Shown here: positions 31,000 through 46,464 of the stretch, in pieces | Position numbering within the stretch: position 1 is the stretch's first letter | How the letters are laid out: the number at the start of each line of letters is the position of its first letter | Translations under genes and position numbers: made by a program | Assembly: GCA_963205105.1 (NCBI GenBank) | Contig: CAUJJW010000322.1 | Location: forward strand, 1 to 64,000 | Length of the DNA: 64,000 nucleotides | Source of the DNA: Verrucomicrobiota bacterium | GTDB lineage: Bacteria > Verrucomicrobiota > Verrucomicrobiia > Limisphaerales > CAIMTB01 | Direction of reading: 5' to 3' | The notes under the pieces: generated by a model | The model's input: the letters and a program-made list of their open reading frames with translations, nothing else | Told to the model about the DNA's origin: nothing | Database searches by the model: none

Positions 31000-31031
31000 A
31001 AAAAACCCCGATGGCGCTGTGGCCATCGGGG
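31000..31031 (-). terminator. Intrinsic terminator at the end of the secreted-protein cluster
   Basis: CCCCGATGGC (31006-31015) and GCCATCGGGG (31022-31031) make a perfect 10-bp stem with a 6-base loop. On the minus strand the stem is followed by a run of five to six T. It lies 34 bases past the stop of the 988-residue secreted protein gene and would end the transcript of the pilus-like and secreted-protein genes. Confidence 0.88.
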
Positions 31032-31064
31032 CAACGAAAACCATGCTGGAATTACTTCAACGTC

Positions 31065-34031
31065 TTACCGGAGCTCAACGACCCGATAAAACCGCTGTTC
31101 ACCGGAAGCATTCAGCCGATCACAAGCCTTAACCAAGCCGGGTGTGCCGGCATTGCTCTCACAAGTTGTCAAAAGGTTCCACTCCCCACCTTGCAATCGA
31201 TTGGAGTACTCCACCCGATACCGAGCACCCGGCGCACCACCCCAGGAAAGCTCCACCTGATCAGGGGACTCAGCCAGAAACGCCACTCTGACGCGCAACG
31301 CCAAGGCCTCGAAAGGATTCGAATCTTCCGCGTTGGGAACCCCGTCCAAATCAGAATCAATCGTGGACGAGTTCAGCAAGTGTCGATTCACCCGAATCAT
31401 CCTTCCATTCGCAAGAGCGACGGAAGTGCCGCTTAGTGCCCCCGCCGCATCCTGAACCCAACGTACACGCCCGTCGAACAAGCCGTCCAAAAGGGTCGGA
31501 TCCACATTCGAAGTCCCGAAGTACAATGTGAAATTGGGATCAATGCTGAGGGAACCAACAACATCGTCGACACTAGAATCCGCGAATTCCAACGAATCCA
31601 CATACAAGGCAGCCGGATTGGTGCTCGCAGAACGAAACGAATACAGACTGAACAACCGACCGGCGAGAACGAGACGTCCCAAGGCTGCGTTATTCACGAA
31701 TCCCTCGGCGGTCGCGCCGCGGTCCTCACCAGCCCAAACGTGATTCACATCTGCAAAACGAGCCCCTTTCGAAATAATGGTTGTGCCGAGCAAATCCCCC
31801 TCGGAAGGCTTTCGAACCAATTGCACACCATCGTAGACCGTCCACACGTTGGAGGAACTGGTGCCTCCATCAGTAAGGCGTGTCGACACATCCAAGATCA
31901 GGGAGCCCAGAAAGTAGTTCGTATTGCCGGAGTTTCGGTTCAGGGATTCATACCCGGCACTCAACGTGGAGGACGTGGCCTTGAAATCGTCGACGACGAA
32001 GGAAAGATTCGCCGCTGCAGCGAAAGTGCCCAACTCAACCTTCAAATGATTCGCCTGTACCACCAAGTCACCCACGAAACTTGAGACAGACCCAGAATTG
32101 GAGAAATCAGACGCATCAATCTGGAGCGTGGAGGCAGAAACAAAACCTTGGTTGACAAAGTTGCTGATAGGTCGCGCGTCCGAACCGAAGGTCCCTCCAG
32201 CAGCCGTGAAAATCCCACCAGCGTTGGTCAGATTATTCACCCTAGGGAAAGTGTCCTGCGAAATTGGATTCGCTTGAAGGTTGATGGTGGATTGAATGGA
32301 AACATCAGGAGCATCCGCCACAAACGACTCTTCCAGGGTCAGATCATCTCCAAGCACCAAATGATCGGCCCTCGCTGCGAATCGATACGTCTGCACGGTC
32401 TGCCGCGTGATAAACTGATGATCGACGATCAAAGCGTGAAACCGAACATCAACGGTATTGGTGACTTGCAGAGTCGGATCCGCAGGATCAGGTCCAACCG
32501 AAGTCGTTTGGTTCGTCCATGCAGCACTCCAGATGGAAACGATCCCATTAAATCGACGGACCGTCGGCTGAATGAGGTTCGACACGGTCAACGAACCAGA
32601 GGACAGCCCGACGTCAGCGTTCACAACCGCAGCGTCCAGTTTGTAAGGCGCCTGCCCGACAAGTTCTTTTGCGGAAATACTAAGCAATCCGTCTGTGCGA
32701 AAACGACTCAGCCCGAGGTCCAATCGATCCGCTTTAATCTCCACGCGGCCGGGCAGGTTTGTCGGATGAGTCAACTCAGGGATTGACCCAAAGAAACCAC
32801 CACCTCCTCCACCACCAAAACTGGAAGTCACATCACCGACCATGCACTGATAAGCGGCGTACACGTTGGTAACGACATCGGAGAGGTAGCCGGGATTGTA
32901 CAATAGCTCAGGAGTAAACGGGAGACTGTTGGTGGATGCCCTGGCCCATTCTGGAGGCGTGACCCGTGTGACAACCAAACTGGTCGGTCTCTGATCGGCA
33001 CGCGTTGCTATGTTGGTCGCCAGGACTGCGTTGGTCATCGCGCCCAAACTATCCAAAACGTAAACGTAGTTGGTGTAAGGCTCCGTGGTAATGGTATCGA
33101 TGTCTTCGAAAGTAAACTGGATGATAGGCATCCTCGCACCATCCACATTATTGATTCGCGGCGCAGTGCTCCATCGCACAGCCACTTTGAATTCAGGGTC
33201 CGCTGAATTGGTGTTCACGAATACAGCCTGCACCACCCAGTTGGTCGGGCTTACCGCGTTCGTGACCGCATAGGCATTGGTAGCACTCAGAGAAACCAAG
33301 TTTGTGAAAGTGGTGCTGTCGAGAACCTCATGAAACCCCGATTCAGGTTCTGCACCCGTCAACACCGCGAGGTCAAAGGGCCCGGGGGCAGCAGGATCCA
33401 GCAGGTTGTTCATCCCTGCGCCCCAATAGAGATCTGTGATTCCCGCATCGTTGCGGAACGTCAATCCCCGAACAAATCCCTGTCGGACAGGCTCGAATGG
33501 GTCCTCACCGGCGCGAATCCCCCCACGCGAGAGGTTCACATTGTTGCCCTCCAGACGAATCAGACCGTCGGAGCCCACGGTAAGACCGCCTCGGTTGACC
33601 ACATTCGAGGCGTTTACCAAAATCCATGAACTGTTGTAAGAGATTGGGAAGAATCCGAAACCTCCCCCAACGTCCCCATCAGGAAGGAAGAAATCAGAGA
33701 ACAGGTCCCCCCCAAAATTCACAATACCTTGATTCAGGAAGCTTGTTGCGCGGCCCCTTGCTCCGCTCTCTGCGACATAATCAAACTGAAATCCGCCACT
33801 TCCTCCGATGGTTGCTCCAGGGAAATTGGTATAGAATCTAGTGTTTTGAGTGTCATAGGGTTGCAGGCCCGAGGCCACATTGAAGGTGCCTCGATTCAGG
33901 AGCACTTCGGCATCAATGACCGGCATGGTCACCTCGGCTCGATTCTCGTAAACGGGTGCTGAAGCGGCAAACCCTGCCAACCCGCCCACGATAAGCGCGG
34001 CCAACACGGCCCATCGATCACTCAATTTCAT
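31065..34031 (-). CDS. Large exported repeat-like beta protein, unknown function
   Basis: 988 residues with a signal peptide (AVLAALIVGGLAGFAASA). The body is rich in Asn, Thr, Gly and Ser with strand-turn patterns (LNRGTFNVASGL, LNQGIVNFGG, LVNASNVVNRGGLTVGSDGLI, SNFVNQGFVSASTLQIDASD) that look like right-handed beta-helix or adhesin-type coils, and a Gly-rich turn near residue 420. The last 80 residues (LSWGGAPGARYRVEYS, then RFYRVVELR) form a beta-domain also seen at the end of the 496-residue protein at 35483. ATG at 34031 was chosen for its signal peptide; another in-frame ATG lies at 34052. GC content is lower than in the flanks. It is last in the transcript and probably works with the secretin-type machine upstream; this is inference. 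Confidence 0.75.
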   Translation of the reverse strand: MKLSDRWAVLAALIVGGLAGFAASAPVYENRAEVTMPVIDAEVLLNRGTFNVASGLQPYDTQNTRFYTNFPGATIGGSGGFQFDYVAESGARGRATSFLNQGIVNFGGDLFSDFFLPDGDVGGGFGFFPISYNSSWILVNASNVVNRGGLTVGSDGLIRLEGNNVNLSRGGIRAGEDPFEPVRQGFVRGLTFRNDAGITDLYWGAGMNNLLDPAAPGPFDLAVLTGAEPESGFHEVLDSTTFTNLVSLSATNAYAVTNAVSPTNWVVQAVFVNTNSADPEFKVAVRWSTAPRINNVDGARMPIIQFTFEDIDTITTEPYTNYVYVLDSLGAMTNAVLATNIATRADQRPTSLVVTRVTPPEWARASTNSLPFTPELLYNPGYLSDVVTNVYAAYQCMVGDVTSSFGGGGGGGFFGSIPELTHPTNLPGRVEIKADRLDLGLSRFRTDGLLSISAKELVGQAPYKLDAAVVNADVGLSSGSLTVSNLIQPTVRRFNGIVSIWSAAWTNQTTSVGPDPADPTLQVTNTVDVRFHALIVDHQFITRQTVQTYRFAARADHLVLGDDLTLEESFVADAPDVSIQSTINLQANPISQDTFPRVNNLTNAGGIFTAAGGTFGSDARPISNFVNQGFVSASTLQIDASDFSNSGSVSSFVGDLVVQANHLKVELGTFAAAANLSFVVDDFKATSSTLSAGYESLNRNSGNTNYFLGSLILDVSTRLTDGGTSSSNVWTVYDGVQLVRKPSEGDLLGTTIISKGARFADVNHVWAGEDRGATAEGFVNNAALGRLVLAGRLFSLYSFRSASTNPAALYVDSLEFADSSVDDVVGSLSIDPNFTLYFGTSNVDPTLLDGLFDGRVRWVQDAAGALSGTSVALANGRMIRVNRHLLNSSTIDSDLDGVPNAEDSNPFEALALRVRVAFLAESPDQVELSWGGAPGARYRVEYSNRLQGGEWNLLTTCESNAGTPGLVKACDRLNASGEQRFYRVVELR

Positions 34032-34064
34032 GCCACGTACAATGGTAAGCATTTTGATTTTCGA

Positions 34065-35474
34065 CTAGCGGCTTCCAAAGATCCTCAGTTCGACATCCCG
34101 AATCGATGTCCCCGTGGGATAGACGATAGGATCATTGGTGCTGCCGTCGAACGAACCCCAGATGAAGTCAGAACTAAAGGCAGGCTGAGCGAGGAAGGTT
34201 GGAGCCGTGTTCAACAAAACCGGTCCCGTCTTCGCAAAACTGATGTTCACAGTTCCAGAGAACTGACCGGGTCCGTCCAAAGTGGCCTGCCCATTGATTG
34301 CGTCATTACTGGTTGCAACCGAATTGCGATCCAGAATCGCCACTACGGGATCAGGGTCCTCAGTCAGGTCTTCCGCCGAGAAAACAAAATCCGGAGCCGT
34401 CAGGAAACGAGTTACCCTTTGGTTGAACGTCCGCTGAACACCATTGGTTATTACTGCGGTGATCGTCTCCGAAAAGCGGTTGGTGATTTGGTAGGCGTTT
34501 GGCTGAAACAATCCGGGAGTGCGCAAGAACGTTATTTTGTCCACGCCCCCTCGCAGTGCTTGCGGGAAGAACACTCCATTCGTGGTCACGACGCCCCCGC
34601 CCCCAGCCGTATTGGTAGAAGGCGCCGGTATCGGGGTCCACTCACCACTCCCTCCAAGACCGCCTCCAGCACCAGCCTGACCAATGGCGTCCGCAGGCAG
34701 AACATCAACATTAACGTTGTCGGGACGATAAATATATCGGAGTCCACCGACATCATCCCGAGTAAGCCCGGTAAAGAATGACCCGTATCCGAAAACAGAG
34801 AAACCCAAACCAGACACCAAGGAAGCTACAGGTTCAGCCAAAATCAGCGGGTCCACGGGCTCAGTGATGGTTGAGGACTTCACTGAGGCGGAATCCTGAT
34901 TGTCGAAGATGTCATTATAGGTCCACAATTGTCCGTTAATATACGGAGTTGGAGCCCATGTCTCAGGATCGAAGTTCCTCTGAATAATCAGGTAGTTGGT
35001 AATGGGCGGAGTGCTCTCTGGTGCCCGAATGCGGCTCTGAAACACGAACCGGGAGGGAGATCCCAGCCCGAGTTGTTCGGTGATCGCCTTCAGCGCGTAA
35101 GATTTCAAGTCGAACATCAGGAGGTCGCTCGCCCTGCGATTCACCCGCTGCGAATGCAGTGGGTAGTCAGAAAGATTGATCTCCGACATCGGAGGAAGGT
35201 CGTTAATAATCTGAATGGCCTGCTCGACCGCATCAACACCATCCTGCCCAAAGTAATTCAGAAACGACTCGTCAAAAGCATAATGCAAGACGGGAACGTT
35301 CCACCGGTATTCTTCCCCAAGATTCACTGGGCCATAAATATCCCCTCCAGGAAATTGCCCTGTTTGGTCGGTGAACCAAGCGGGTATTTCCCCAAGCAGC
35401 GAGAAGGACATGGCCCGGCGATGGATCCCCGCCAAGCCCGACAACAAAAGAAGAGCCAAAAAGATTCGCCTCAT
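34065..35474 (-). CDS. Exported protein with metzincin-like fold but no zinc motif
   Basis: 469 residues, signal peptide at 1-22 (IFLALLLLSGLAGI). Residues about 45-260 carry features reminiscent of matrixin-type metallopeptidases: YRWNVPVLHYAFDESFL, AVEQAIQIINDLP, and later LTRDDVGGLRYIYRPDN like the region after the matrixin catalytic helix. The helix that would carry HExxHxxGxxH instead reads ALKAITEQLGLGSPSR, so catalytic ligands are absent and proteolysis is unlikely. I recall similar non-catalytic proteins in Verrucomicrobiota, but their function is unknown to me. The C-terminal half is Gly/Thr-rich and beta-like. ATG at 35474, 8 bases after the 496-residue protein's stop. Confidence 0.7.
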   Translation of the reverse strand: MRRIFLALLLLSGLAGIHRRAMSFSLLGEIPAWFTDQTGQFPGGDIYGPVNLGEEYRWNVPVLHYAFDESFLNYFGQDGVDAVEQAIQIINDLPPMSEINLSDYPLHSQRVNRRASDLLMFDLKSYALKAITEQLGLGSPSRFVFQSRIRAPESTPPITNYLIIQRNFDPETWAPTPYINGQLWTYNDIFDNQDSASVKSSTITEPVDPLILAEPVASLVSGLGFSVFGYGSFFTGLTRDDVGGLRYIYRPDNVNVDVLPADAIGQAGAGGGLGGSGEWTPIPAPSTNTAGGGGVVTTNGVFFPQALRGGVDKITFLRTPGLFQPNAYQITNRFSETITAVITNGVQRTFNQRVTRFLTAPDFVFSAEDLTEDPDPVVAILDRNSVATSNDAINGQATLDGPGQFSGTVNISFAKTGPVLLNTAPTFLAQPAFSSDFIWGSFDGSTNDPIVYPTGTSIRDVELRIFGSR

Positions 35475-35482
35475 AACTTCTC

Positions 35483-36973
35483 TCACCGAACGCGGACAAT
35501 ACGGTAAAGGACCATGTGCCCTGGCGCAGAAACTGCCAGTTCGTCGCTCTCGCCGGAAGCAGTCCGAGTGCTCCCGATGTTCTTCCACCCTCTGGCATCC
35601 ACGGAGGATTGGAGTTGATAAACACCGCCGGCGACGGTTTGCCACTGCAACCTCAGCAGTCCGGGCCCTCCGGATCGAACTCGCAGAAGCAAAGGCGACA
35701 ATCTCTGTGCAAATAGCTCATAACCAGTTCTTGGCTGGTTGCTGGAGTAGGCAACCAATAGACTTGAATCCTCGCCTCGGGCAATGGCGGGAAAGATCTG
35801 CCCTCCACCAGATTGAGTGTTGATGGCGATTTCATCGCCAGAAGGTTCTCCAGCGGCATCCACCCACCGACCGAAAACGCCTTCCCAAGATCCATCTTGC
35901 CCCATGCTTGTCCACACGGCCATAACCCCGTAGGAGGTGACGGCTACCCTGGGTCGAAACTGATCGCCCATGACTTGAACGTTCAGCAAGCGCTCTCCGT
36001 TGGCGGGCAGCCCGAAAGAATTCAGCATCCGTCCGTAGACGTCATAACGTGCCTGCCGATCGCCCGGACTCCGCCGCGTCCATGCGGCAAACACACTTCC
36101 GTCGCCGAGCGTGGCAAGTACTGGATTCGCGGCCATGCCGCTCTCCGAAATCGCAAACTCATTGCCAAGTGGTGAACCTGCTCCGTCAAACGAGCGTGCC
36201 ACCACTTGCACCGAGAAGACGGGAGCTCCATATCCGGCAAGCGATCTGCCCCTGGCATCGGCATTGTCACGGACCCCCACCTGACGTTCTTGCACCCAGA
36301 TCCCAAGGAAACCTCCCGAACCCAATGCAGCCAACGCAGGGCTCCTGCGGTTCATTCCCTGGCTCGCATTGAGACGGAACTCATCTCCCAGCAGCTCTCC
36401 AGCCGAAGAAACTCGACGCGCGAAGACATCGTACGAAGAGCTTTCCTCTTGTCGGTAGCTCGCCCATGCCACCACCGCAGACCCATCCGTCAGGACCGCC
36501 GCGACCGGGTCAACCTGGTGTTCACCGTCACCCGTTGAAAGGGCGAAATCCGGCCCAATCGGAGTTCCATCGGCTGCCAGGACACGTCCCACGATACGTT
36601 GAAATCCGACACGCCCTCCCTGCCAGACACACAGACTTCGACCGTCTGCGAAGGATGTTACGTGGGGATTCTCCTGCTCACCCAAGCCATCCTGGTTAAC
36701 ACGTCGTGGCGATCCAACACCCTTCCCATCGGGTCCGAGTCGAAGCGCGGCAATCCCCAACCCTTGACCGTCAATGGCGGCATCCTGCCACAGCACCCAC
36801 CCGCCTTCGTTTCCAAAGACCATCGAAGGATTCACCTGATCACCCGGGATTCCCCGGGTCAATGGGTATTCCAGCCCAAGCGGCTGCAATCCACCAGCCG
36901 TGGCTTGAAGAACCGTCCAGCCGAGCGCCACGCTGCCAAGCAACCCAGTCACTGCATGGGAACAAACTTTCAT
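35483..36973 (-). CDS. Exported beta-propeller-like repeat protein
   Basis: 496 residues with a signal peptide (HAVTGLLGSVALGWTVLQATA). The mature protein consists of seven or so repeats of about 55 residues of the form ...DGSAVVAWASYRQEESSSYDVFARRVSSAGELLGDEFRLN, each with a W and a V(A/F)xRxxxxxGxxxGxE core, which implies a beta-propeller. The last 75 residues (LLRLQWQTVAGGVYQLQSS, then MVLYRIVRVR) form a C-terminal beta-domain shared with the large protein at 31065. ATG at 36973, 70 bases after the secretin stop on the same strand. Function unknown; it may be displayed on the surface. Confidence 0.72.
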   Translation of the reverse strand: MKVCSHAVTGLLGSVALGWTVLQATAGGLQPLGLEYPLTRGIPGDQVNPSMVFGNEGGWVLWQDAAIDGQGLGIAALRLGPDGKGVGSPRRVNQDGLGEQENPHVTSFADGRSLCVWQGGRVGFQRIVGRVLAADGTPIGPDFALSTGDGEHQVDPVAAVLTDGSAVVAWASYRQEESSSYDVFARRVSSAGELLGDEFRLNASQGMNRRSPALAALGSGGFLGIWVQERQVGVRDNADARGRSLAGYGAPVFSVQVVARSFDGAGSPLGNEFAISESGMAANPVLATLGDGSVFAAWTRRSPGDRQARYDVYGRMLNSFGLPANGERLLNVQVMGDQFRPRVAVTSYGVMAVWTSMGQDGSWEGVFGRWVDAAGEPSGDEIAINTQSGGGQIFPAIARGEDSSLLVAYSSNQPRTGYELFAQRLSPLLLRVRSGGPGLLRLQWQTVAGGVYQLQSSVDARGWKNIGSTRTASGESDELAVSAPGHMVLYRIVRVR

Positions 36974-37043
36974 TCGGGGTAACCCAGAAGTCCGAGTTAA
37001 GAATTGCACGTGTAGTCAGTTACGGCAAGGCACCCATTCGGCG

Positions 37044-39824
37044 TCATTGCACCTTCTTTTGTTGATCCGGCAAAACGCTGGGGTCGAACGGCAGATTGTC
37101 CGGCGTATGGACCGGGTTGCCTGCAGGATCGATGATCGTCGGGGTGATGAAGATGACGAGATTCCGTTTGGAAGCCGATGTGGACTCGGTTCGGAACAGG
37201 CGGCCGATCCAAGGAATATCACCAAGGAACGGAACCTTGTCCCTTTGCTTCCGGATGTCCTCGGAAATCAGGCCACCCAAAACAACCGTCTGACCATCCC
37301 AAACAATCGCCGAAGTGACCACCTGGCGGACACGCAGACGGGGCAGAGGAAGCTGAGCTGTGAGTGGTAGGCCGATCGCATTCCCCGCAGCACCTTGGAC
37401 CTGCGGAATGAAAAGTCCCGGGTCATCGTAGCCCAGAAACTCGCTAAAGGTGGGGATCAGTGTCAGTTCGATCGTGTACCCATCCGCGGCGACATACGGC
37501 ACGACATCCAAAACCGGTCCGAACGGGGTGATCTGGGTGATGTAGCCCACTTGGCTGCCAATGGCGCCAGCACCGCCGCCGATTCCTGCGCCACCACCCA
37601 CCTGCCCGCCGCCGCCACCAGCTGTCGCTTGCTGCAAGTCGACGCCCGTCACGATGGTTCGCAGGTCGTTGATTTGAACTTGCGCTTGCCGACCGGACAG
37701 GGTGGTCACGCGAGGAGCCGCCATCAGTTCAAGAGCGCCACGCTGTTCCAATGCACGGATCACCACTCGGAACTGAGGGTCGGTCATTAAGCCTGTGATG
37801 GTGCCCAAGGCAGGAATGCTGCCACCCTGGCTTCCAACGGTTTGACGAAGGCCGCCGGTCAGGACGTTGTCCGAGGCTTGAGAAGGAGTCGCCCCAGGTC
37901 CTGGAACGCCATTGGCGTCCGCAGGCCCGGGAAAGATTCCGCTAGGATTGGCAGCCGAGGAGCGCCCTTGGTAGGACGGAGCCGTGCCGGGCTGGACCCC
38001 GACTGCACCATTACCCAGCAACCAGTTACCAACCATCCAGTCGAAGCCAAGAGCCTTCAGGTCATCCTGACCTACTTCAGCGAATTTCGCCTCGATTTGG
38101 ATCATCGGCGGTGCCGCGTTAAGCACCTCGATCGCTTGCTCGACGATTTCAATCTCCTCCGTGGTGGCGCGCACCATGAGCAGACCCAAACGGTCGTTGA
38201 AAAACACAGCGTTAGGAGGGAGCAGGTTCACGCCGGCTGCGGCGAAGAACGTACGAACAACCTCCTGAACGGATTGAGCCGGCGTCGGGATGGTTACACC
38301 ACGCAGGCCGTTGCTACCTCCTCCTCCGCCGCCACCACCAATCCCACCACCGCCGCCACCGCCGCCACCGCCGCCAGCTCCACCGCCACCCTGTGCAACA
38401 CCGCTAACGAACACGCGTGGGATGATGGTGCCAATCGAGCCACCGCCTTGACCACCACCGCCTTGGCCGCCGCCACCACCGCCACCGCCACCGCCGGCAC
38501 CACCACCACCGGAGGTTCCGGTCTGGAAGTCACCAAATGTGATGCCAAGAACGCTCTCCAAACCCGACTCGAACGTGTTAGGATTCACGCGGAACACGCG
38601 AGTGATCAACTGGGCCCGTTCAGGCGCTTTGTGCAAGAATACGACGGCGTAGTCTTCAATGGTTATTTTGATCGGGCTTGAGGCTGACTTGGATACAGCA
38701 TCGATAACGTCGAGTAGTCGAACGTTGTTCAATGCTGGATCAATTCGAACGGTAACATCGTTCAAATTGATCTGTTCGGCCGCAGGAACAGCAATGGTTG
38801 CTCCCGTATTGGGGTCCGTTTGGAAGCCGGATGCCGATTGAACGTTGTCCTGATAGGGATTGATGAAGAAATTAATGCCCTGTTTGTCAGGGTCGCGAGC
38901 TTTCGCCTCATCCTTCAGATAGCGAACCACCTCGCTTAGTGGCAGTTCTTCAAACTTAACTTCGTCCAATTTGATTCGCTCCAGCTTGGACTTGATGACC
39001 TGTCTGCCCTTGCTTGTGTGAACGAGATTCGTTGTGGCGAACGGGTTTGCTGCCGGAAGATTATCTTTCGTGAGAGGCTTGTTCCAAACCTCGTCAATCA
39101 TCAGCAGACCGGAGCGGCTGAGGATGCCACGCCGCTTGTTCTCCAAGCGCATCTTGGCATCCAACAACTGCTTCATGTAGTAGTTGGCAGGCTCGTTGCC
39201 TGGATCGGCATCCAGAGCTTCCTTCAGCTTTGCCTCGGCTTTCGCGAGCTCCCCCGCGTCCAGAAAGACTCGAGCGTCCTGAACCAGAGTGCTGACCTGG
39301 ATTTTCTTTTCGTGAATCTCCGGGAGCTGGCCGAGCGCATCAGCGCTGGGAGTGAGCCCGCGTTTTTGGGCGATGGCCTTGTCGAGCTCCTGCTTGAGTT
39401 TCGCTGCCTCCTGATGAAGTGGGTCTACCTTCAGGACCCGGTCAACATGGGCAACAGCTTCATTGAGGTAGCCCCGTTTTTGTGCGCTTGCCGCCAGTTG
39501 CATTCGGGTGGCAGATACGCCGGCAGCGGCCCGGCCTCGTTCCGGATCGGCTTTGGCCCCTACGCGCAGAGCTAGTGCGTAGGCTTCCTCATATCGTCGC
39601 GCAGCATCGGAGATGCGGTTGGCGGCGACGTCTCGGTCAGCCTGCTGGAGCTTGCCTGCAAGGAGCTGATAAGCCTCCTCTCGGCGCGCACCTTCTTCAA
39701 TCGTTCCAGGCGGCGACGTTTGCGCCGAGGCATGGAGTGGAGCGCCCAGACTGAGAATCAGGGCCAACAGGGATACAGCAGCGTGGCGGGTCATGGAGCC
39801 GGGTTCAATGCGGGACAGAGACAT
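37044..39824 (-). CDS. Type IV pilus/type II secretion secretin (PilQ/GspD-like)
   Basis: 926 residues with a signal peptide (HAAVSLLALILSLGAPLHASA). Residues about 35-200 are helical TPR-like repeats (EAYQLLAGKLQQADRDVAAN, AEAKLKEALDADPGNEPAN). Next come N-domain modules (VRIDPALNNVRLLDVIDAVS), then a Gly-rich low-complexity insert at about 433-515, a further N-domain (EIEIVEQAIEVLNAAPPMIQ), and the secretin channel domain to the C-terminus with diagnostic VPFLGDIPWIGRLFR and KRNLVIFITPTIID. It would form the outer-membrane pore of a pilus or secretion system. ATG at 39824 has GAGAGG about 9 bases upstream and lies 13 bases after the preceding stop. The order fits pilMNOPQ. Confidence 0.92.
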   Translation of the reverse strand: MSLSRIEPGSMTRHAAVSLLALILSLGAPLHASAQTSPPGTIEEGARREEAYQLLAGKLQQADRDVAANRISDAARRYEEAYALALRVGAKADPERGRAAAGVSATRMQLAASAQKRGYLNEAVAHVDRVLKVDPLHQEAAKLKQELDKAIAQKRGLTPSADALGQLPEIHEKKIQVSTLVQDARVFLDAGELAKAEAKLKEALDADPGNEPANYYMKQLLDAKMRLENKRRGILSRSGLLMIDEVWNKPLTKDNLPAANPFATTNLVHTSKGRQVIKSKLERIKLDEVKFEELPLSEVVRYLKDEAKARDPDKQGINFFINPYQDNVQSASGFQTDPNTGATIAVPAAEQINLNDVTVRIDPALNNVRLLDVIDAVSKSASSPIKITIEDYAVVFLHKAPERAQLITRVFRVNPNTFESGLESVLGITFGDFQTGTSGGGGAGGGGGGGGGGQGGGGQGGGSIGTIIPRVFVSGVAQGGGGAGGGGGGGGGGGIGGGGGGGGSNGLRGVTIPTPAQSVQEVVRTFFAAAGVNLLPPNAVFFNDRLGLLMVRATTEEIEIVEQAIEVLNAAPPMIQIEAKFAEVGQDDLKALGFDWMVGNWLLGNGAVGVQPGTAPSYQGRSSAANPSGIFPGPADANGVPGPGATPSQASDNVLTGGLRQTVGSQGGSIPALGTITGLMTDPQFRVVIRALEQRGALELMAAPRVTTLSGRQAQVQINDLRTIVTGVDLQQATAGGGGGQVGGGAGIGGGAGAIGSQVGYITQITPFGPVLDVVPYVAADGYTIELTLIPTFSEFLGYDDPGLFIPQVQGAAGNAIGLPLTAQLPLPRLRVRQVVTSAIVWDGQTVVLGGLISEDIRKQRDKVPFLGDIPWIGRLFRTESTSASKRNLVIFITPTIIDPAGNPVHTPDNLPFDPSVLPDQQKKVQ
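38283..38525. repeat. GC-rich low-complexity tract (CCNCCN) encoding poly-Gly
   Basis: Inside the secretin gene, the + strand shows long runs of CCACC/CCGCC/CCTCC triplets, in two blocks separated by a short normal stretch (around VFVSGVAQ). On the coding strand they are Gly codons. Tracts like this are prone to replication slippage and length variation. Confidence 0.85.
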
Positions 39825-39837
39825 AAAAACGTACCTC

Positions 39838-40662
39838 TCAAGAAATACCCTTACGGCGGACGATCCAGCGCTTGGAGGTGCTGGACTGGACAGTAACTTC
39901 GTCCTTATTGATGGCAACGATATTGTAAGTTTGGGAGCCCAAACGGATTCCGCCGGGCTGCTTGGTGCGCACGTTATTGAATTTCGTTCCGAGCTTCTCG
40001 TGCACCATGTCCGCTTCATATCCGGCAACGCGCTTAAAGGCTTGCTCCCGGGTCACAGTTGCGGTTTCGGTGGAGTCGGCGAAACGAAATTCAACACCGG
40101 TCGGGTTGTCCGCTGGCCCCATGATCTTGGTAACCACGAACGGATCCGATTTCGATGAGGATCCCAATGCCAAGTACATTTGTCGCGGGCGTGCGGACCG
40201 CCCGCCTTTGGCTTCGTCCAGCACGTTGAACTTGTATCGGGTGCTTTCCCCGCTGGCCTGCACCCCGTCGAACTCAATCACAAGATGCAGCGGACGAATC
40301 GCCGTGGCGATCAGACCGCCTGGTCCGTCCTCGTCGCCGCGGACAACCTTGAACAGCGCCCCGTCCCGACCTCGCTTCCAAAGGACCGGGTTGAACAAAT
40401 TGTGTTCGCCGGAGAGGTTGAGTTTCGGCTGCGTCTTGAGACGCTTCATCATCGACTCGTAACCGGTCGTGTCGACGGGCTGGCTTTCCTTCTTTCGGGC
40501 TCGTTCGCCCAGTTCCAGGGCTTGCCGGATGGTTTCTCGGTTCTGAGCCACCCGAAAGGGGAGAAAACCCGCAGCTCCGAGCAAGGCCAAGAGAATCACG
40601 CTCAGGATGATCTTCTCGTAGTGGGCGCCAAACACGACGCCGAGTTTCTTGAGCTGGTCCAT
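39838..40662 (-). CDS. PilP-like inner-membrane accessory protein
   Basis: 274 residues with one N-terminal transmembrane helix (KIILSVILLALLGAAGFLPF, about 15-35) and a large periplasmic part with several beta-strand stretches (LHLVIEFDGVQASGESTRYK, ending IRLGSQTYNIVAINKDEVTV). The ending resembles the small beta-domain of PilP/GspC, which docks onto the secretin. Sequence similarity to PilP is weak by eye, so the call rests mainly on position between the PilO-like gene and the secretin. ATG at 40662, 13 bases after the preceding stop. It would sit at the position of Amuc_1099 of Akkermansia. Confidence 0.7.
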   Translation of the reverse strand: MDQLKKLGVVFGAHYEKIILSVILLALLGAAGFLPFRVAQNRETIRQALELGERARKKESQPVDTTGYESMMKRLKTQPKLNLSGEHNLFNPVLWKRGRDGALFKVVRGDEDGPGGLIATAIRPLHLVIEFDGVQASGESTRYKFNVLDEAKGGRSARPRQMYLALGSSSKSDPFVVTKIMGPADNPTGVEFRFADSTETATVTREQAFKRVAGYEADMVHEKLGTKFNNVRTKQPGGIRLGSQTYNIVAINKDEVTVQSSTSKRWIVRRKGIS

Positions 40663-40675
40663 GACGTCTTTCGCC

Positions 40676-41890
40676 TTATTCGGATGCAGGAGTCGAACTG
40701 TCGGCTCCTTGGGTTGCAGCATCCTCCGCCAGGGCCGAACGGGCGCCGCGCCGTGCGGTTTCCGGCTCAGGTTTTGGTTTGATGAAGTCGAGTTGAATGA
40801 TCACGCGGAGTGGCTTCTCGTCGAGGACCACGGAAGGCCCGGTAGGAGCCGCAGGGGCCGGAGTTCCGCTCATCATGGGCGTCGACAAGGATGGAGGTGG
40901 AGCTCCGGCCGTTCCGCCACCGATACCGTAGCGCGAACGCATGGCGGCCTCTCCCGAGCCTCCCCCAGGCCCCAAGCCGTAACGGGAGCGAAGGGCTGGA
41001 TCCATGCCCATGGCTCCACCGCCACTCTCGGCTGCAGAGCGAGAGCTTGGCCCGAGACCGTACCGCGACCGAAGGGCAGCATCCATTCCTCCGCCAGGGC
41101 CACCCGGAATAGGCGAGGTCTGGGTCGGCATGAACATGGTGGGCTGGCCTTGACCCGGGCCTTGGGAGGGCAGCGTTGTGGGCTCGATGTTGACGGTTTT
41201 GATCGCCACCACCTCTTGGAGCGACGCAAAGCCTCGAAGGACCCCGGCCAACTCGCTGCTGAACGCACGAAAGCTGAGGTCGTAAGGCGCCCGAACAATT
41301 AGATTTCGGTTGGTGACCGCCTTTTTGGTCAGATAATCGGTGCTACCGCCTTCATCCTTGAGAATGGCGGGACGACGAAGCTGATCCAATGAATGAACTT
41401 TGGCGTCGAACAACACACGGCAGAGAAGCGAGATCTGAGCCACCTGCTCAGCCAGTTTGGGGATCCCATTGGATTCAAACTGCGGCATTTCACGAAGCTT
41501 CTGAAAGGTAAAGGCATACCTGTCAGGCACATTCACTCCTGCTGCTTCCGCCTCCTTCTTTAGGTCGGATATCGTGGTCTCGATCAAAAGCTTGAGAGAG
41601 AAGGTGTCCGTCACCGGCTGAACGCTGGGCGATTTGATGCTTTCTCGAAGGGCAACCGTCAGCTTCTCCACTTTTGCGGCCTCATCCCGGACTGCCTTGA
41701 TGTTTTTTTCATCTGGATAGGGGTTGAGGCTGTTCAACCGGTTCCATTCCGTACGCTTCTCCTCAAGCTCCGCGTTGACGGTGGATTCTCGCGTGGATTG
41801 GGCGAAGAGGAAGAAGGCGCTCCCTCCAAGAAGCACCAATCCCACCAACCCGCCGAGAACGAGCGTCAGGTTCTTTTTGATCCACGGCAT
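40676..41890 (-). CDS. PilO-like protein with triple RYGL motif (Amuc_1100 position)
   Basis: 404 residues. One transmembrane helix near the N-terminus (LTLVLGGLVGLVLLGGSAFFLFA, 8-30) is followed by coiled-coil segments (about 35-115) and an alpha/beta periplasmic domain (to about 235) of PilO type. Residues 240-355 are a Gly/Pro/Met-rich linker with three copies of a 12-residue motif: DAALRSRYGLGP (270-281), DPALRSRYGLGP (297-308) and EAAMRSRYGIGG (314-325). The chain ends with a strand (LRVIIQLDFIKP) and an acidic tail. The layout resembles Akkermansia Amuc_1100. ATG at 41890, one base after the stop of the PilM/N fusion, so translation is coupled. Confidence 0.8.
   Translation of the reverse strand: MPWIKKNLTLVLGGLVGLVLLGGSAFFLFAQSTRESTVNAELEEKRTEWNRLNSLNPYPDEKNIKAVRDEAAKVEKLTVALRESIKSPSVQPVTDTFSLKLLIETTISDLKKEAEAAGVNVPDRYAFTFQKLREMPQFESNGIPKLAEQVAQISLLCRVLFDAKVHSLDQLRRPAILKDEGGSTDYLTKKAVTNRNLIVRAPYDLSFRAFSSELAGVLRGFASLQEVVAIKTVNIEPTTLPSQGPGQGQPTMFMPTQTSPIPGGPGGGMDAALRSRYGLGPSSRSAAESGGGAMGMDPALRSRYGLGPGGGSGEAAMRSRYGIGGGTAGAPPPSLSTPMMSGTPAPAAPTGPSVVLDEKPLRVIIQLDFIKPKPEPETARRGARSALAEDAATQGADSSTPASE
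40916..41083 (-). repeat. Triple 12-residue coding repeat (ALRSRYGLG)
   Basis: Three direct repeats of 36 bases within the PilO-like gene, at 41048-41083, 40967-41002 and 40916-40951. They keep the Arg-Ser-Arg-Tyr-Gly core and are separated by Gly/Ser-rich spacers of 15 and 5 residues. A related unit is found in the PilM/N gene at 42216-42251. Confidence 0.85.
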
Positions 41891-41891
41891 A

Positions 41892-43784
41892 CTAAAGCTG
41901 GATGGGGTTCTTCAGTCCGAGAGTCATCTCGAACGTAAAGGTGGGGGCGCCCTCCTCCGGAGTCGGCTGTTTGCCGAGGCGCGTGTTCTCCGGGTCGAAA
42001 AGTGGACTTGACCGCAATTCTTGCTCCACGGAAGCCGTGATGTGCAGATTGTTGGTCGGTGAGAGATTGGCCAAGTTCACGGCCCTAAACACCAGACTGA
42101 TTTCAGACACCTCGTTTGTGGAGCCGGACTTCTTTTTCTTCGCGGACGCCGCGGCGGGAGCCGTGTCGCCTCCGCCCCCATCGCCTCCATCACCCTCAGC
42201 AGCTACCGGCGTTGTTGGAATGAGCCCGTACCGCTTCATCAACTCCGGCGACATCCCGAAGGAAGCAGGCTTCGCCTCCTCTTCGGCGGGTGCTTCCTGG
42301 CTATCAGCAAATTCCTTCACGACATCGCCCATGCGCATCGATTCGATCCAGATTCCGACATCCACGCCAGGTGGCTTTGCCTTTTCTTCGGCCGCGAGCA
42401 GGGCATTGCGGAGCTCGCCAAAGAGATCGACCCACCGAAACTTCGCCTGGAGCCAATCTCGGTAATAGGTTGCCTCTTCCTCGGCCTTCTTCAGCGTCGA
42501 ATTGGCCGAGTTAAGTTGTTGCTCCTTCGATTGCAGTGGCTCGACCTTTTCAGCGATTTGGTTGAGCGCGGCTTCCTTGTCGTTGCCCACGGACCGCGCG
42601 AAGAATCCGAGAGCGGCCACCACACCCACGAGGCTGAACAACGAAGCCAACAGGTAAGGCTTCTTCTGATCGAACTGCTGCCTCTTGAGGGAGCTTTTGG
42701 GCAGCAGGTTCAATTCGATGGGACACTGGGCAAGATTCCGAAGAGCGAGCCCCACCAACTCCCCCATCCCGTGAGCCACGCCAGAAAGCTCGTCCACGTT
42801 GACGGCTGGTCCAATCTGGACGTTGCGGAGGGGGTTGAAGTACTCAACCGGCACGTTCAGTTTCTCGTTAAAGAACTGAGCAGTGTAAGGCATAATGGAA
42901 GCACCGCCCGACAGCACCAATCGCTGGGGTGCCCCCCCGCCCTGCTGGCCGCGATAGAACTGAATCGTCTGGTTGACCTGAATGTGGAGGCGGGTCATGA
43001 CCTGCCGGGCAACCTTCGCGATAGCGGCCTGCTTGGGATCCTCAGGCTCCTCATACGCGCCACCAAGACTGACGAGACCGTGCTGCAGCTTGAAGGATTC
43101 AGCCTCATTGAACCGAATTTTGGATTCGGTCGCAAAATCCTGGGTGATCGAATTGGCTCCAATGCTGATGCTGCGCGCGTAGATCTTGCCCTTCTCGAAG
43201 AACAGCACGGTGCTGGTCTTGGCGCCGATGTCCAAGAGCATCGTGCATCCATCCTGGTCGCTGTAATTGAAGCGAAAGGCGTTGGCGAGAGCAGCGGGAG
43301 AAACATCCACGTGCTGCAGGCGAACACCTTTGGATTCGGCGACTCGGAAAAGTCCTTCAACAATGTCGGTCTTGATCGCGACGAGCAGGACCTCCATCTC
43401 CCCACCGGCTGCGGTGCCTAGGATTTGATAGTCCCAGACAACTTCGGCCAGCGGGAACGGCACGTTCTGCTGGGCCTCATATTGGATGATCTGCGAGACC
43501 TTGGCAGAATCGACCGGAGGCAGTTTGACGAACTTCGAGAAGACGTGGAACCCAGGAGCGCAGACGCTGGCGGTGCGAGCGCTAAACCCGCGTTCTGAGA
43601 TCAACTCCTGAAGCCCCTTGGTCACCACGCGTTCCCGGGCCGTCTCCTGGGATCCTTCGAGGCCTAGTGAGCGGGTCCCAAATTGGCGCAGCACTAGATT
43701 CCCGGCGTCGTTGATCTCGAACTCGGCCAGCTTCAGCGTGCCGGCGCCGAAATCGATCGTGAGGAATGGCTTGGCTTTAAGCAT
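41892..43784 (-). CDS. PilM-PilN fusion protein
   Basis: 630 residues in two parts. Residues 1-350 are an actin/FtsA-like PilM ATPase domain: phosphate 1 DFGAGTLKLAEF, phosphate 2 LLDIGAKTSTVLFF, adenosine-like LVLSGGASIMPYTAQFF. Residues from about 355 are PilN-like: the characteristic cytoplasmic INLLP-type motif LNLLPKSSLKRQQ (358-370) that normally binds PilM, a transmembrane helix (YLLASLFSLVGVVAALGFFA), a coiled coil and a periplasmic alpha/beta domain. A linker contains SPELMKRYGLIP (512-523), related to the repeats in the PilO-like protein. The fusion keeps the PilM-PilN contact within one chain. ATG at 43784 was chosen as the start of the ATPase fold. It is the first gene of the pil-type operon. 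Confidence 0.88.
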   Translation of the reverse strand: MLKAKPFLTIDFGAGTLKLAEFEINDAGNLVLRQFGTRSLGLEGSQETARERVVTKGLQELISERGFSARTASVCAPGFHVFSKFVKLPPVDSAKVSQIIQYEAQQNVPFPLAEVVWDYQILGTAAGGEMEVLLVAIKTDIVEGLFRVAESKGVRLQHVDVSPAALANAFRFNYSDQDGCTMLLDIGAKTSTVLFFEKGKIYARSISIGANSITQDFATESKIRFNEAESFKLQHGLVSLGGAYEEPEDPKQAAIAKVARQVMTRLHIQVNQTIQFYRGQQGGGAPQRLVLSGGASIMPYTAQFFNEKLNVPVEYFNPLRNVQIGPAVNVDELSGVAHGMGELVGLALRNLAQCPIELNLLPKSSLKRQQFDQKKPYLLASLFSLVGVVAALGFFARSVGNDKEAALNQIAEKVEPLQSKEQQLNSANSTLKKAEEEATYYRDWLQAKFRWVDLFGELRNALLAAEEKAKPPGVDVGIWIESMRMGDVVKEFADSQEAPAEEEAKPASFGMSPELMKRYGLIPTTPVAAEGDGGDGGGGDTAPAAASAKKKKSGSTNEVSEISLVFRAVNLANLSPTNNLHITASVEQELRSSPLFDPENTRLGKQPTPEEGAPTFTFEMTLGLKNPIQL

Positions 43785-43921: not shown

Positions 43922-44914
43922 TCATACGGGCTGACCCTTCATTTGACCACAAAAATAATCTATCGTGAGCTGAAGACCTTGAGCCAACCCGACTTCAGGA
44001 CTCCACTTGAGGAGCTTCTGTGCCCGTGAAATATCAGGCCGACGCTGCTTGGGATCATCCTCCGGCGCGGGTTTGGTGACCAATCGGCTTCGGGATCCGG
44101 TGAGCCTCAGGATCTCCTGAGCGAACTCACGGATGGTCATTTCCCGGGGATTGCCGATGTTCGTGGGCGACCATGCGCTCCGATCGGTGCACATCATCAG
44201 GCGGTAAATGCCCTCCACGAGGTCTGAGACGTAGCAAAAGCTGCGCGTCTGAGCACCATCGCCATGGATGGCAAGTGGTGTTCCAGCCAGGGCCGAACCT
44301 ATGAACGAGGGCACAACGCGTCCATCTCGAAGGCGCATTCTTGGCCCGAACGTGTTGAAGATCCTCACGATGCGGGTCTGCAGCCCGTGTTCCGCCCGGT
44401 ACGCCATGGTGAGAGCTTCCGCAAAGCGCTTCGCCTCGTCATAACAGCCACGAGGCCCCACGGGGTTCACATTGCCCCAGTAATCTTCCGTTTGCGGATG
44501 GACCAGGGGGTCCCCATAGACCTCGGAAGTGGATGCCAGCAGGAAACGGGCGCCCTTGTTCTTGGCCAGGCCGAGGGCCTTGTGGGTGCCCAGCGACCCA
44601 ACCTTCAGGGTCTGGATGGGCAACTCCAAATAATCCACCGGACTTGCCGGTGAGGCGAAGTGCCAGACAAAATCGACCGGTCCTTCCAGAAACAGGAACT
44701 CCGTCACATCCTGCTTCACGAAGCGAAAAGCCGGATTTCCCGCCAAGTGCTGGATATTTTGGAGCGAGCCAGTGACGAGGTTGTCCAGCACCGTCACCCG
44801 ATGGCCCCGCGACAGCAGCAAGTCGGTGAGGTGCGACCCCAAAAAACCTGCACCGCCCGTCACCACGGAGTGTGGCGAGGCTGAGCGCGACGTTTTTCGG
44901 GTGGGCAGTGCCAT
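43922..44914 (-). CDS. NAD-dependent epimerase, UDP-glucuronate decarboxylase (UXS)-like
   Basis: 330 residues of an extended SDR. The NAD site is [53 protein letters not shown] and [16 protein letters not shown] are the UXS signature, with the catalytic Tyr and Lys in YDEAK. UXS enzymes convert UDP-glucuronate to UDP-xylose. dTDP-glucose dehydratase is unlikely because of the PIQTLK and WGNVNP motifs. It would supply sugars for envelope polysaccharide. ATG at 44914 was chosen as the start close to the Rossmann strand; in-frame sequence upstream is not homologous. It lies between nuoN and the pilus genes and probably has its own promoter. Confidence 0.88.
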
Positions 44915-45012
44915 GGGTTTTGCTGTCGGGAACGAAACTCTGCCCGAAGCCCGTAGCACTTGTGAAGCCCCTTGATGCTGACGAACGCGGATTCGCGATT
45001 CTTCAAACCCGT

Positions 45013-46464
45013 TCAGAACTTCAGCAGGGCCACGGCCGCCACTGCCGCATCCCAAACAGAACCAGGGAAAAGCCCCAAAAAGAGGATTCCGAGTACCCCG
45101 CCAACCAGAGCCATTCGGATGACGGGGGGCACCACCACCGGGCTTGTCTCCTCAGGCCCCTGATTCCAATAAATGGCTCGAACGACTCCAAAATAGTACC
45201 AGAAGGAGATCACCACGCCGATGATCGCGATCCCGCCCAAAACGAAGTAGGAGGGCAACGCGGTGCCCTGTTCCACAAGCGCTTTCAACACCAGGAACTT
45301 GCCAAAGAAGCCAACTAACGGTGGAACACCTGCCAACGAGACCATGGAAATCGCCAGGGCGCCTGCCAGGAGCGGCGAACGTTGATGCAGACCTGCAAGC
45401 GCTGAAAAATCATCCGTTCCCAACCGCTCCACGACCACGGCAACCACCAGGAAGGCCGTCAGCACGGTGAAGAGGTAGCCAGCGAGGTAAAACAACACCG
45501 CCGCAGAGCCCGCTTTCGACATCGCGGCCAGGCCCAGCACCACAAATCCACCGTTGGCGATGCTGGAGTAACCCATGAGCCGCTTGAGACTCCTTTGGGG
45601 AATCGCACTGAGACTTCCAAAAAGGATCGAAACCGCCGCCACCACCATCAGGAGCATCTCCCACTTCAATCCAAGTTCCGGAATAACGCCGCCCAAGAGG
45701 CGAACCAGAAGAACCACCCCAGCAGCCTTGGAACCAATCGCGAGGAAAGCCGTCGTAGGTGCCGGGGAACCTTCGTAGACGTCGGGTGCCCAAATCTGGA
45801 ACGGAAAAACCGCCACCTTGAATGCAAGGCCGCCGAGAACCAGAAGCATTCCCACCTGAAACAGCCTGTTCTCGGCAAGTTCCGCGGATTTCGCCGCCAG
45901 TTCGTCGAACTGCATGGTTCCAGAAGCACCAAAGCACAGGGCGATTCCGTAAACCATGAAAGCCGAGGACAGCGCCCCCAGGATCAGGTACTTCACGCCG
46001 GCCTCCAGTGAGGCCACTCGGGATCGCTGGTAGCTGGTCAGCACGTAAAACGCGACGGTGATCAACTCCAATGCCACGTACATCACGGCGAAATTGTTGG
46101 CCGACGCCGCCAGAAGCATTCCAGCCAGCGCGAAGAGGGTGAGCACGAAGTATTCCGTCACACCCGATCCCAGTCGGTCCCCCATGTCCGCGGCCAATAG
46201 GAGAACGAACACACCGGCACAGAGGAACAGCGCCTTAAAGAACACCGCCAACCCATCCAGGACGAACATCCTCCCGAACGCATAGCCGGGTTCGGGCAGC
46301 CCTGCATGGCCGGAGAGCGCGTAAAGGCAAAGGACCGCTACGACGGCGGCGGAGGCATGGCCCAGCAGGCGTCGTCGCGCAGTCGGGACCACCCCGTCCA
46401 TCATCAGGAGCGACAAGCCAAGCAACACCAGCACGACTTCAGGTCCGAGCAGCCAGAGATTCAT
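45013..46464 (-). CDS. nuoN: NADH-quinone oxidoreductase subunit N
   Basis: 483 residues of an antiporter-like proton-pumping subunit of respiratory complex I. Fourteen or so helices are visible. Diagnostic stretches are [16 protein letters not shown] (TM5 with key Glu), the lysine-bearing [22 protein letters not shown], and [13 protein letters not shown]. It is the last gene of the nuo operon; its ATG overlaps the nuoM stop (ATGA). It pumps protons at the distal part of the membrane arm together with NuoL and NuoM. Length is normal. Confidence 0.95.

Follow-up and report, generated by a model that had tools for sequence, protein, structure and literature searches.

A PilMN-PilO-PilP-secretin operon of Limisphaerales as the probable frame of a PilT-equipped type IVa pilus, with an order-specific extension

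Does a compact PilM/N/O/P/Q-like operon in a Verrucomicrobiota bacterium of the order Limisphaerales serve a pilus, a secretion system or something else? A first-pass annotation of a 64,000-nucleotide stretch of contig CAUJJW010000322.1 (the whole stretch is called the window below) had left this undecided. It had described four minus-strand genes, for a PilM/PilN fusion, a PilO-like protein, a PilP-like protein and a secretin, with gaps of 1 to 13 nucleotides, in the same order as Amuc_1101, Amuc_1100, Amuc_1099 and Amuc_1098 of Akkermansia muciniphila. The open reading frames, their strand and their order are as described, and the gaps are 1, 13 and 13 nucleotides in window coordinates (Table 1). 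The window's genome (G000) is a draft assembly of 8.18 Mb in 412 contigs, 93% complete. The operons nearest to this one are from metagenome-assembled genomes (MAGs) that bear the titles Limisphaerales, Pedosphaera or Verrucomicrobia subdivision 3. With a probability of roughly 0.84, we read the four genes as encoding two parts of a type IVa pilus equipped with PilT, its alignment complex and its channel through the outer membrane.

Table 1. Features of the operon and its downstream extension in window coordinates
Feature	Position	Strand	Remarks
PilM-PilN fusion (PilMN)	43784-41892	minus	ATG start, 630 aa
PilO / Amuc_1100-like inner-membrane protein	41890-40676	minus	404 aa, single N-terminal TM helix
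PilP / Amuc_1099-like protein	40662-39838	minus	274 aa, TM anchor, GspC-HR/PilP-type beta domain at the C-terminus
Secretin, Amuc_1098/PilQ-like	39824-37044	minus	ATG start, 926 aa
c5, putative secreted seven-repeat beta-propeller-like protein	35483-37009	minus	508 aa; start GTG 37009 or ATG 36973
c12, secreted protein of unknown family	34065-35474	minus	469 aa
Large secreted protein, Asn/Gly-rich repeats	31065-34052	minus	995 aa
Intrinsic-terminator-like hairpin	31005-31032	minus	11 pairs then TTTTTT, ~33 nt after 995-aa gene

Identity and conservation of the four core proteins

The first gene encodes the genome's sole PilM_2 match (PF11104, Pfam, E 2e-32), and its product matches NCBIfam family Amuc_1101_fam with 489 bits (E 2e-146). 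In profile searches against the PDB, residues 1-349 matched Myxococcus PilM (3jc8_Ma, E 4e-64) and residues 355-483 matched Myxococcus PilN (3jc8_Na, E 3.5e-8). The protein thus consists of a PilM part (residues 1-350), a PilN-type cytoplasmic motif, IELNLLP (356-362), a single transmembrane segment directly after it (about 378-396) and a PilN-like periplasmic part. The cytoplasmic peptide of PilN normally docks on PilM in trans. Since the motif is retained just ahead of the sole transmembrane segment, this docking peptide is here fused to its partner in cis.

The PilO-like protein matched Amuc_1100_fam (NCBIfam) with 78 bits (E 8e-22), and hhalign of its profile A2 against Amuc_1100 gave a probability of 92% (E 7e-7). 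A PDB relative was found neither by single-sequence phmmer nor with profile A2, and there was no Pfam PilO match. The PilP-like protein likewise had no PDB relative by phmmer or profile A3 and no Pfam PilP match. With these searches empty for both proteins, predicted structures were needed.

For the PilO-like protein, an AlphaFold model (59-sequence alignment, pLDDT 79) gave ten Foldseek matches below 1e-3, all of them to Amuc_1100 (6lad, 6laf, 6kny; E 2e-9 to 4e-8). In VIA, the same crystal structures were again closest, with Z 18.7, 17.6 and 17.6 (6lad_D, 182 aligned residues at 6.5 A; 6laf_A with Z 17.6, 166 at 2.8 A), followed by PilO of P. aeruginosa (2rjz_B, Z 10.2; 5uvr, Z 8.7) above an unrelated background of about 5.7. 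The model has a long N-terminal helix, further helices, an alpha/beta domain, a strand at 361-372 and a C-terminal helix at 377-397. Of the layout that had been proposed as shared with Amuc_1100, the helix, alpha/beta domain, linker and strand are all present, but the linker (about 241-355, of low confidence in the model) is Gly-rich in addition to Pro/Ala-rich, and the C-terminal helix had not been foreseen.

For the PilP-like protein, the match to Amuc_1099_fam (NCBIfam) was marginal (13 bits, E 0.05), and 15 of 54 relatives matched this family, the best with 7.9e-5. Its predicted model (pLDDT 89) gave no Foldseek match below 1e-3. In VIA, the only strong match was the E. coli GspC HR domain from the GspC-GspD complex (3oss_C; Z 8.6, 2.0 A, 64 of 65 residues); the second row reached only Z 4.7, and PilP itself was not among the matches listed. 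A comparison by hhalign of profile A3 with a single Akkermansia-type PilP was weak (probability 9%, E 0.0035). PilP is an established structural counterpart of the GspC HR domain, and it binds the N0 domain of the secretin (PMC4471445). Through the GspC HR match, a PilP/HR-type domain is present beside the secretin, although the protein differs from classical PilP in having a GspC-like transmembrane anchor and not a lipoprotein anchor. The Akkermansia comparison had depended on the 404-residue protein resembling Amuc_1100/PilO and the 274-residue protein resembling Amuc_1099/PilP, and it withstood the search, with Amuc_1100 and PilO folds for the first protein and the HR match for the second.

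The fourth protein is a secretin (PF00263, E 1.8e-33; Amuc_1098_fam, 345 bits, E 8e-103) with a signal peptide-like start, an N-terminal TPR region, Gly-rich loops and a C-terminal secretin domain. TPR_2 was found in 16 of the 25 family members scanned, and a TPR region ahead of the channel domain has likewise been described for Akkermansia PilQ (PMC4960237). Some families elsewhere in the phylum have two Amuc_1098-type secretin genes in tandem after PilP (L125:6658-11708, L133:6710-12568, L136:7911-13418, L137:1363-6351); it would be unusual for one machine to use two secretins.

All four proteins therefore match the Amuc_1101, 1100, 1099 and 1098 families in the annotated order, 1099 marginally. 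The NCBIfam equivalog cut-offs for these families are 650, 180, 50 and 750 bits, and as no score reaches its curated cut-off, we regard the operon as a homologous system and not as an Amuc_110x equivalog. In an Akkermansia-type locus that we also analyzed (L120), all four genes exceed the NCBI cut-offs and Amuc_1102 lies upstream. A search of the window's genome for Amuc_1102 gave no match, but as the control genomes gave none either, the empty result is no sign of absence.

The operon is nearly universal in the phylum. Amuc_1101 matches were found at E<=1e-3 in 188 of 195 phylum-sample genomes, of which weak ones may represent FtsA or GspL relatives, and at E<1e-20 in about 173. The same gene order was seen at 20 locations in different genomes of the phylum, several recognised in part only: the PilO slot was unrecognised by profile at L136 and L137 and the PilP slot at several loci including Akkermansia-type ones, and the contig stops early at L130 and L134. 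Limisphaerales-type operons with 58% PilMN identity are also present in two public MAGs whose record titles are Akkermansia muciniphila and Candidatus Omnitrophota (L042, L104); these records look mislabelled or mixed.

Compared with the Akkermansia Amuc_1102-1098 cluster (NF042424, NF045709, NF038287, NF042425, NF042912), the window has the same one-strand order, a fused PilMN, the Amuc_1100 fold and a TPR-plus-secretin protein; it differs in its scores below cut-off, in the absence of an upstream Amuc_1102 and in three additional downstream genes for secreted proteins. Compared with type IVa PilMNOPQ of Pseudomonas and Myxococcus, PilM, PilN, PilO and secretin are recognisable by profile or fold and an INLLP-type PilN motif is retained, but PilM and PilN are fused, the PilP-like protein is membrane-anchored with an enlarged domain, the secretin carries a fused TPR region, and motor genes are not adjacent. 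We judge the core to be a known machine which, with its order-specific extension, makes up a lineage-specific variant.

Motor genes and the choice between pilus and secretion system

The first-pass annotation had pointed out that pilin, assembly ATPase and PilC are missing. This holds within the cluster of four, but assembly ATPase, PilC and prepilin-like genes are encoded elsewhere in the genome: the genome-wide search that had been suggested for PilB, PilC and PilD found all three, the PilD-type peptidase on contig C96, and in addition PilT, split across two contig ends. As the draft has 412 contigs and the motor genes do not share one with the operon, their link to it rests on orthology with relatives.

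In one relative (G157, locus L156), the genes PilB-PilT-PilB-PilC, an Amuc_1102-like gene, and PilMN-PilO-PilP-secretin follow each other on one strand. A second relative (G015, L157) has the same series, also on one strand and with prepilin-like genes interspersed, up to the point where the stretch analyzed ends before the secretin; PilC is unlisted there because a longer opposite-strand reading frame masked the stretch. PilT of the relatives' linked cluster scores above its cut-off (461 versus 319 bits). Within the window's genome, the first PilB of the relatives is closest to contig C187 (57%), and contig C357 provides the best matches to their PilT (71-74%), second PilB (54%) and PilC (53%). 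C187 breaks off in the N-terminal portion of a PilT gene and C357 starts in its C-terminal portion, consistent with a single PilB-PilT-PilB-PilC cluster split by an assembly break, although we infer the join itself. It is the gene neighbourhood in these relatives that narrows the choice to a type IVa pilus. A further candidate for a motor-linked locus, in genome G114, was rejected, as PilT lies there among unrelated genes.

Prepilin-like genes follow PilC on C357 (L140:6381-12723). They show weak N-terminal matches, in sequence along the contig, to Verru_Chthon cassette proteins D, B, C and A (models TIGR02600, 02598, 02599 and 02596 for A-D), which are far under the cut-offs and could be produced by N-terminal prepilin segments alone. 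The uncharacterised D-B-C-A cassette may represent the minor-pilin set of the candidate pilus.

Across 195 genomes, PilT and PilMN were associated (Fisher p 3e-6), but we give this co-occurrence no weight, as losses are concentrated in two lineages. Two genomes (G116, G136) have a PilMN match and no PilT above cut-off. Other clusters of ATPase, PilC and secretin genes also exist in the window's genome; given these, and with the sole PilM_2 match located in the window operon, the operon is most plausibly the frame of the pilus that has PilT.

A different assignment is in our estimate very unlikely, namely that the operon is the GspL-GspM-GspC-GspD equivalent of a type II-like secretion system whose cargo would be the three secreted proteins encoded directly downstream. 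The fused PilM-PilN has the two-in-one layout of GspL, the PilP-like protein is transmembrane-anchored with GspC as its best structural match, the secretin scores higher with the GspD than with the PilQ model (138 versus 108 bits), and genes for signal-peptide proteins lie directly downstream. Sequence and fold matches nevertheless favour PilM, PilN and PilO: the halves of the fusion match type IVa PilM and PilN in the PDB profile search, and PilO follows Amuc_1100 among the matches of the PilO-like model. GspL and GspM were not among the matches listed for the PilMN and PilO-like proteins, an absence that does not by itself exclude them. The retraction ATPase PilT is absent from type II secretion systems, but is part of the same gene series in the two relatives. 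Moreover, the genome has other secretins with an ATPase of their own or with GspL/GspM-like genes, for example on C263. As a pilus machine can also export proteins, the two readings are not fully exclusive.

A type IVa pilus serving mainly for DNA uptake would be a special case of our reading, and an unlikely one. It is suggested by a 5_3_exonuc protein (PF02739, 2.7e-47) whose gene directly follows that of the secretin at about 30 loci of Limisphaerales, as well as in several other classes, but this gene is missing from the window operon and from many other loci, and 5'-3' exonucleases of the PolA type are ordinary enzymes of replication and repair. Where present, the exonuclease gene (PF02739/PF01367) is located for example at L058:15539-16420 and L126:2798-3673, with about 30 further loci.

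Returning to the PilT-equipped pilus, the established roles of PilMNOPQ suggest how the parts would work together. The PilM part would be cytoplasmic, with its PilN tail carried in cis and not bound in trans, and the PilN part would span the inner membrane and pair with the Amuc_1100-like PilO protein, so that PilMN would couple the cytoplasmic motor to PilO. The PilP-like protein would connect the frame with the secretin, at the base of this channel with its built-in N-terminal TPR region, and prepilins as well as the extension, retraction and platform components (PilB, PilT, second PilB, PilC) would be supplied from elsewhere in the genome.

Upstream of pilMN, a gene for a sugar-nucleotide epimerase/dehydratase (43922-45055) has homologues in 34 related loci and possibly functions in glycosylation of pilin or the cell surface.

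Secreted proteins encoded downstream of the secretin

The cluster had been delimited as four genes, but the series continues to position 31065 with three more. Gaps between secretin, c5, c12 and the 995-aa gene are 34, 8 and 12 nucleotides, and a strong terminator-like hairpin follows. Terminator-like sites are present at chance level in total; the one at 31005-31032 stands out by its stem, the longest of all, by a clean T run and by lying where a terminator would be expected. We therefore propose, as a new feature of this locus, that the operon probably extends past the secretin through three genes for secreted proteins.

The layout is conserved in the order. Among the same-contig pairs listed from 146 genomes of the order, all keep order and strand: in 86 of 86 pairs the c5 family follows PilMN (median gap 5.9 kb), in 83 of 83 the 995-aa family follows the c5 family (1.8 kb), and in 69 of 69 the 995-aa family follows PilMN (9.6 kb). 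Homologues of c12 occupy the same place in 14 other loci, or 15 loci including the window in which the flank reaches c12.

Tryptophan is invariant about every 55 residues in c5 (74, 129, 182, 238, 310, 366), with a seventh in relatives, some of which match GH43 and Fn3 models. We read c5 as a putative seven-repeat beta-propeller-like secreted protein that also carries a C-terminal domain typical of the order. For c12, the profile search found no PDB relative; it may resemble matrixin metalloproteases (C-terminal LTRDDVGGLRYIYR), but lacks HExxH. A C-terminal segment of about 85 residues, YxLQSSxD...W...YYRV, is shared by c5 (35483-35670) and the 995-aa protein (31065-31400), and weak matches to it end many other large secreted proteins of the order. 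It is possibly a sorting or anchoring domain.

The three genes could instead be unrelated passengers or separate transcription units, since they were not seen beside the operon outside the order (20-location comparison) and c5 had no match at E<=1e-40 in 194 other phylum-sample genomes. We consider this quite unlikely, as strand, order and spacing are kept in all of the above same-contig pairs across many genomes and families of the order, the gaps are short and the strong terminator-like site comes only after the third gene. Most likely, the three proteins would be used together with the pilus, whether as partners at its surface or tip or as cargo that it exports, although any of these roles is speculative. 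We tentatively suggest, as a possibility somewhat short of even odds, that the Limisphaerales operon has gained a dedicated surface module, placed at the pilus tip in a PilY1-like role that would have arisen independently, or exported through the secretin, so that the machine would be pilus and secretion system in one.

Implications for Amuc_1100 and for Limisphaerales

Research on Amuc_1100 has treated it as an 'outer membrane pili-like' protein that acts on the host (PMC5332112). As its relatives take the place of PilO in a pilus machine found across the phylum, its native site is predicted to be the inner membrane, facing the periplasm, and its native job is predicted to be pilus assembly, also in bacteria other than gut symbionts. 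Relatives in which motor genes and frame genes form a single series identify the motor that studies of Akkermansia should seek, and the order-specific secreted proteins are testable candidates for pilus display or export.
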